From positions 1 through 23,365 of the forward strand of contig PWOI01000208.1 in NCBI GenBank assembly GCA_003557485.1: a stretch of DNA of 23,365 nucleotides, written 5' to 3'. A program made the translations under genes and the position numbers. Below, piece by piece: positions 14,166 to 16,532 of this stretch. Positions within the stretch are counted from its first letter, which is position 1; each line of letters opens with the position of its first letter. This DNA comes from Elusimicrobiota bacterium. GTDB lineage: Bacteria > CG03 > SLGR01 > PWQF01. The notes under the pieces were generated by a model. That model made no database searches. It was not told the origin of the DNA and was given only the letters and a program-made list of their open reading frames with translations.

Positions 14166-14939
14166 ATGGCTGACAATCAAGGCAAATATACCGCTGATAA
14201 TATAAAAGTAATGGAGGGGCTTCAGGCCGTACGGAAACGTCCGGCTATGTATATAGGATCCACAGGGGACGAAGGCCTTCATCATCTTGTTTATGAAGCG
14301 GTTGACAACTGTATTGACGAGGTTCTTGCGGGGCATTGTTCAAATATAAGCGTAGTGATAAAAGCCAACGGGAGTATTTCCGTTATTGATGACGGACGCG
14401 GAATCCCCGTTGATATGCATAAAAAATATAAGAAACCGGCACTTGAAATAATAATGACAAAACTGCATGCCGGAGGTAAATTTGACCACAAGGTATACCA
14501 GGTTTCCGGTGGACTTCACGGCGTAGGTATTTCCGTAGTAAACGCTCTTTCAGAATGGCTTGAAGCTGAAGTTGCAATTGACGGGCAGAAATATTCACAG
14601 CGGTTTGAGCGCGGCAAGCCTGTTACAAAGTTGCTGAAAAAAGGTAAAACAACTGAGAAAGGAACCACCGTAACTTTTAAACCTGATGCTGAAATATTTT
14701 CAACTACGGCATTCAGTTTTGATACGCTTTCCAGAAGGCTCAGGGAGCTGGCGTTTCTTAATGCGGGCACAAACATAAGCATAATAGATGAGGCTTCTGA
14801 TAAATCCCACACGTTTCATTATAAGGGAGGAATAGTTTCATTTGTTAAGCATTTAAACAAGGGGAAAGAGCCGCTCCATAACGAGCCTATATACATAAAT
14901 CATCAGCAGGATGGCATTATCCTTGAAATTGCAATATAA
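14166..14939 (+). CDS. gyrB: DNA gyrase subunit B, N-terminal part ended by an in-frame TAA
   Basis: These 257 codons encode the GHKL ATPase part of GyrB. Visible motifs are AVRKRPAMYIGSTG near residue 20, the catalytic-Glu segment YEAVDNCIDEVLAG near 43, DDGRGIPVD near 77, and GGLHGVGISVVNALS near 117. AGGAGG precedes the ATG by about six bases. The frame stops at TAA (14937-14939) after LEIAI. In GyrB this position is a Gln (the ALQ-[YW]-N motif), and the downstream codons continue the family sequence in the same frame with no shift ([22 protein letters not shown]). The gene is therefore one base change (CAA to TAA) from a 788-residue GyrB. As written, the product would lack the rest of the ATPase/transducer domain and the TOPRIM domain. 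It may be a sequencing or population variant, a true nonsense mutation or a recoded stop. Confidence 0.9.
   Translation: MADNQGKYTADNIKVMEGLQAVRKRPAMYIGSTGDEGLHHLVYEAVDNCIDEVLAGHCSNISVVIKANGSISVIDDGRGIPVDMHKKYKKPALEIIMTKLHAGGKFDHKVYQVSGGLHGVGISVVNALSEWLEAEVAIDGQKYSQRFERGKPVTKLLKKGKTTEKGTTVTFKPDAEIFSTTAFSFDTLSRRLRELAFLNAGTNISIIDEASDKSHTFHYKGGIVSFVKHLNKGKEPLHNEPIYINHQQDGIILEIAI
14937..14939 (+). other. In-frame stop codon interrupting gyrB
   Basis: TAA is codon 258 of the frame that opens at 14166 and closes at 16532. The flanking codons give EIAI before and YNSGY after, and families such as E. coli GyrB have ALQWND at this place. TAA ends several neighbouring genes (dnaA, recF, dciA, archease, rtcB, serS), so a general reassignment of TAA is not supported. 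Confidence 0.92.

Positions 14940-16532
<1,593 letters not shown>

Follow-up and report, generated by a model that had tools for sequence, protein, structure and literature searches.

Stop codons kept by selection within the reading frame have been proposed for prokaryotic genes in a study that used stops common to orthologues in at least two species in order to remove sequencing errors (PMC7918605). A further described system is the programmed +1 frameshift of prfB, and isolated stops are also met as consensus errors in draft and metagenome genomes. The interrupted gyrB analysed here resembles the proposed readthrough genes in that the sequence is constrained both before and after its in-frame stop, but it differs from them in that the orthologues examined lack the stop, both release factors recognise UAA and no suppressor tRNA was found in the draft genome. 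Like prfB, it is an essential gene whose coding region contains a stop in frame; prfB, however, has a TGA, a slippery CTT, an upstream GGGGG and a change of frame, whereas gyrB lacks all of these features and stays in frame. The locus compares most closely with isolated stops due to consensus error: one substitution in an otherwise perfect and constrained essential gene, absent from relatives, in a draft of many contigs and with a comparable case in metF of the sister genome. A literature search on erroneous stops in metagenome bins returned nothing on the point.

The gyrB frame and its genomic setting

The window, i.e. the whole stretch of 23,365 nucleotides that was analysed, is contig 121 of a 212-contig draft genome of 2.07 Mb which is 86.6% complete and whose fragmentation suggests a metagenome bin. 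Translation of its gyrB region yielded 789 codons containing one internal stop besides the terminal TAA (Table 1). The internal stop is the TAA of codon 258, whose counterpart in the alignment with E. coli GyrB is Gln257 (numbering of chain 6rks_B) and which is flanked by the identical frame on both sides. Residues 8-257 of the upstream piece match positions 1-253 of the TIGR01059 gyrB profile, and the frame past the TAA matches DNA_gyraseB (from profile position 40), Toprim and DNA_gyraseB_C. The ATPase, transducer (PF00204), Toprim and C-terminal domains are consequently all found in one frame, with the TAA as the sole interruption.

Over all 788 codons the frame aligns end to end with the GyrB of the same genus at 91% identity, which indicates that the two pieces are not a chance juxtaposition. 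The full-length alignment also rules out an indel or frameshift at the stop. An earlier note on this DNA had described an in-frame TAA in an otherwise complete GyrB, caused by a substitution and not by an indel, and both statements are confirmed by the translation, the profile matches and the alignment.

Table 1. Features of the interrupted gyrB and the adjoining gyrA (positions in the window).
Feature	Position	Strand	Evidence
gyrB frame of 788 codons and a stop, with one interruption	14166..16532	+	translation; same-genus GyrB alignment; NCBIfam gyrB on both pieces
upstream gyrB piece: ATPase (HATPase_c) domain and start of transducer	14166..14936	+	profile matches
in-frame TAA, codon 258, in transducer (PF00204) domain	14937..14939	+	sister genome GAA
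gyrB codons 259-295, without in-frame ATG/GTG/TTG start	14940..15050	+	ORF reading and alignment
mechanical downstream ORF from first start past the stop: remainder of transducer, Toprim, GyrB C-terminal domain	15051..16532	+	
intact gyrA, adjoining gyrB, sole GyrA/ParC match in genome	16550..19084	+	TIGR01063

The gyrA paired with the interrupted frame is intact, as had been noted before, encoding 844 aa and scoring 1173.9 bits against TIGR01063 (cut-off 877). In the 86.6%-complete draft PF00204 and PF00521 match once each, so that gyrase, formed by the interrupted gyrB and this gyrA, is apparently the only type IIA topoisomerase of the genome. The profile search of the draft with these two families thus revealed no second GyrB/ParE or GyrA/ParC gene, including the second gyrB or parE for which the earlier note had suggested searching the rest of the genome. 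The replacement of GyrB by another topoisomerase was rejected on the same single matches.

The surroundings of gyrB appear to be an origin region (384-22183 of the window), in which parB-parA-rsmG-mnmE-jag-yidC-yidD-rnpA on the minus strand diverge from dnaA-dnaN-recF-DUF721-gyrB-gyrA, followed after gyrA by archease, rtcB and serS. Gene names in this region beyond the profile-scanned genes were read from the translations.

Codon 258 in related genomes and constraint past the stop

The search for GyrB/ParE covered 61 genomes including the source genome, 59 of which gave a match, and among the 58 of these besides the source genome no internal stop was detected in GyrB/ParE. The sister genome of the same genus has GAA (Glu) at codon 258, and the other five relatives in the order have GAA (three genomes), GAG (one) and CAA (one), so that Glu occupies the position in five of the six. 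Gln prevails outside the order, and across the 109 other GyrB/ParE sequences Gln was found in 76 and Trp in 24. The earlier description of the site as a conserved Gln thus has to be amended for the order to which the source organism belongs, where the residue is mostly Glu.

Since the closest relatives have GAA, a G-to-T change is the simplest history, whereas CAA to TAA would need an additional Glu-to-Gln step. From this comparison the parsimonious change at codon 258 is best read as GAA to TAA and not as CAA to TAA; the C-to-T substitution assumed previously is unsupported. The comparison with close relatives had been suggested in the earlier note, and it found the stop absent from them. A scan of genome contigs with GyrB for a second assembly of the same species gave best matches of 44-52% identity.

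Between codons 259-788 and those of the sister there are 181 synonymous differences and 46 that alter the amino acid, a proportion close to that before the stop (95 synonymous and 20 amino-acid differences). Among the amino-acid changes after the stop that could be assigned with an outgroup, 10 fall on the own lineage versus 14 on that of the sister, i.e. these changes reveal no excess past the stop on the own lineage. Judged by these substitution counts, the frame is not that of a decaying pseudogene: the stop either arose very recently, is not real or is read through. Strong constraint past the stop is also expected under true readthrough.

Readthrough, separate pieces and the meaning of TAA

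Readthrough of the UAA to a full-length GyrB would agree with the open and constrained downstream frame, and selection-kept in-frame stops in prokaryotic genes, as proposed in PMC7918605, would provide a parallel. The UAA would then truly stand in the sole gyrB of the genome, at a position for Glu, and the level of gyrase would be reduced and perhaps regulated. We consider both the production of full-length GyrB in this way and this wider scenario very unlikely, as the stop is common to no relative examined, gyrB contains nothing like the recoding motif of prfB, and neither a suppressor tRNA nor the lack of a release factor was detected in the 86.6%-complete draft.

Both release factors recognise UAA as a stop, and both are encoded in the genome: RF1, which has a P-E-T motif and whose gene lies upstream of prmC, and RF2, which has an S-P-F motif. 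The RF00005 search detected 40 tRNA genes, 35 of which were typed by ARAGORN, and no UAA-reading tRNA was found among these 35. A UUA anticodon loop was also sought with two patterns, neither of which matched any of the remaining five; their only tRNA matches were tRNA-Lys(TTT), tRNA-Leu(TAG) and tRNA-Gly(TCC), all of which are normal.

Two further observations were made among these genes. The prfB gene (L262:820-960, C145) contains a typical site of programmed +1 frameshifting, GGGGGTAT followed by CTTTGA, after which RF2 continues in the +1 frame. A tRNA-Leu at L257:1700-1785 (C100) was assigned the anticodon AAG by ARAGORN, which is unusual in bacteria.

A GyrB in two pieces, in which two fragments, each translated on its own, come together as a functional subunit, could make use of the ATG at 15051, which opens an ORF of 493 aa and is preceded by a weak AGGG 8 bases upstream. 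This AGGG, however, is part of the codons for a conserved Thr-Arg pair, and the break lies inside the transducer domain and not at a natural domain boundary. Downstream translation could not start before codon 296, so that codons 259-295 would be lost together with position 258. Six residues that are invariant in the 109 GyrB/ParE sequences (N272, G279, G280, H282, G285 and T291) fall within the lost codons. Given that the pieces would have neither the transducer domain nor the conserved residues complete, and that a stop at codon 258 occurs in no relative, such an arrangement seems scarcely credible.

Even less probable, to the point of being negligible, is the reassignment of TAA to an amino acid in the source organism, for which nothing speaks except the single gyrB codon. 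TAA is the commonest stop, terminating 159 of the 318 scored genes in the sample, in agreement with the earlier argument from its use as an ordinary stop, and it is nearly absent inside genes. It is thus neither frequent within genes nor avoided as terminator, and with RF1, RF2 and a standard tRNA set present the reassignment was rejected.

Isolated stops in the draft and the probable origin of the base

The background of lone stops was sampled in 504 kb of the own genome (24% of the genome) and 350 kb of the sister, the comparison between the genomes using one ORF per place. In 65 sister genes with a match in the own genome (21,782 aligned codons) the gyrB stop was the sole true internal stop, and no frameshifts were detected in these genes. 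A second row with an internal stop, located in L206, looks like an antisense frame according to its composition.

The coding-signal scan of the 504 kb (157,140 codons) returned many stop-separated pairs in the same frame, nearly all of which were adjacent genes or wrong-frame noise, and revealed one further likely stop within a gene. The latter is the single in-frame TAA of a Fic/DOC-family ORF (L197:5362, minus strand, C141), with PF02661 matching the downstream piece; it may reflect an error, or the ORF may be an accessory pseudogene of the ordinary kind. In the sister genome, metF (L177:6676, minus strand) has a lone in-frame TGA where the own genome has GGA, and this isolated stop appears to be of the same type as the TAA in gyrB. 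The sister furthermore has an outer-membrane-like ORF split by one in-frame TGA (L172:1867, minus strand), a homologue of which was not detected in the sampled part of the own genome.

Of random base changes in the own genome, 4.2% would give rise to a stop. Two lone stops in 157,140 codons would thus correspond to approximately 1e-4 wrong bases per base, on the assumption that both, i.e. every lone stop, are errors, and this appears plausible as a consensus error rate for a draft bin. The changes in gyrB and metF both fit G-to-T; two cases do not establish a pattern, as G-to-T already accounts for 27% of the single changes that can lead to a stop.

The stop could be a genuine nonsense mutation carried by part or all of the sampled population, either as a minor allele or in a lineage that is losing gyrB. 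This would suit a draft that probably represents the consensus of a population; nonsense alleles due to one base do occur, and a very young mutation would leave the frame as perfect as it is. GyrB is essential in bacteria, however, and no second GyrB/ParE or GyrA/ParC was found in the draft, so that a fixed loss would be lethal unless another copy were located in the missing ~13% of the genome. We regard a real nonsense mutation as improbable, though less so than readthrough, and a rare dead allele as less likely than a single-base error.

The TAA is unique to one draft genome and interrupts a gene that is otherwise constrained. It is very probably a single-base substitution, likeliest from GAA (Glu) to TAA, that is absent from the working gyrB of the organism. 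Its most probable source is an error of sequencing or of the consensus, or a damaged DNA base, in a draft that is fragmented. The stop itself, its absence from relatives, the GAA of the sister, the intact and constrained frame, the single type IIA topoisomerase of the draft and the rarity of other lone stops are observed, whereas we infer that the base at 14937 is most likely wrong in the draft. Among the options listed in the earlier note the single-base artefact or minor allele fits best, whereas the two-piece GyrB and code reassignment are contradicted and readthrough lacks positive evidence.

The cells would thus presumably have a normal GyrB without interruption. Were the stop genuine, the production of gyrase, an essential enzyme, through a UAA stop would be a great surprise. 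Isolated stops in essential genes of draft genomes call for caution, and the nearest relatives should be compared before recoding or gene loss is claimed.
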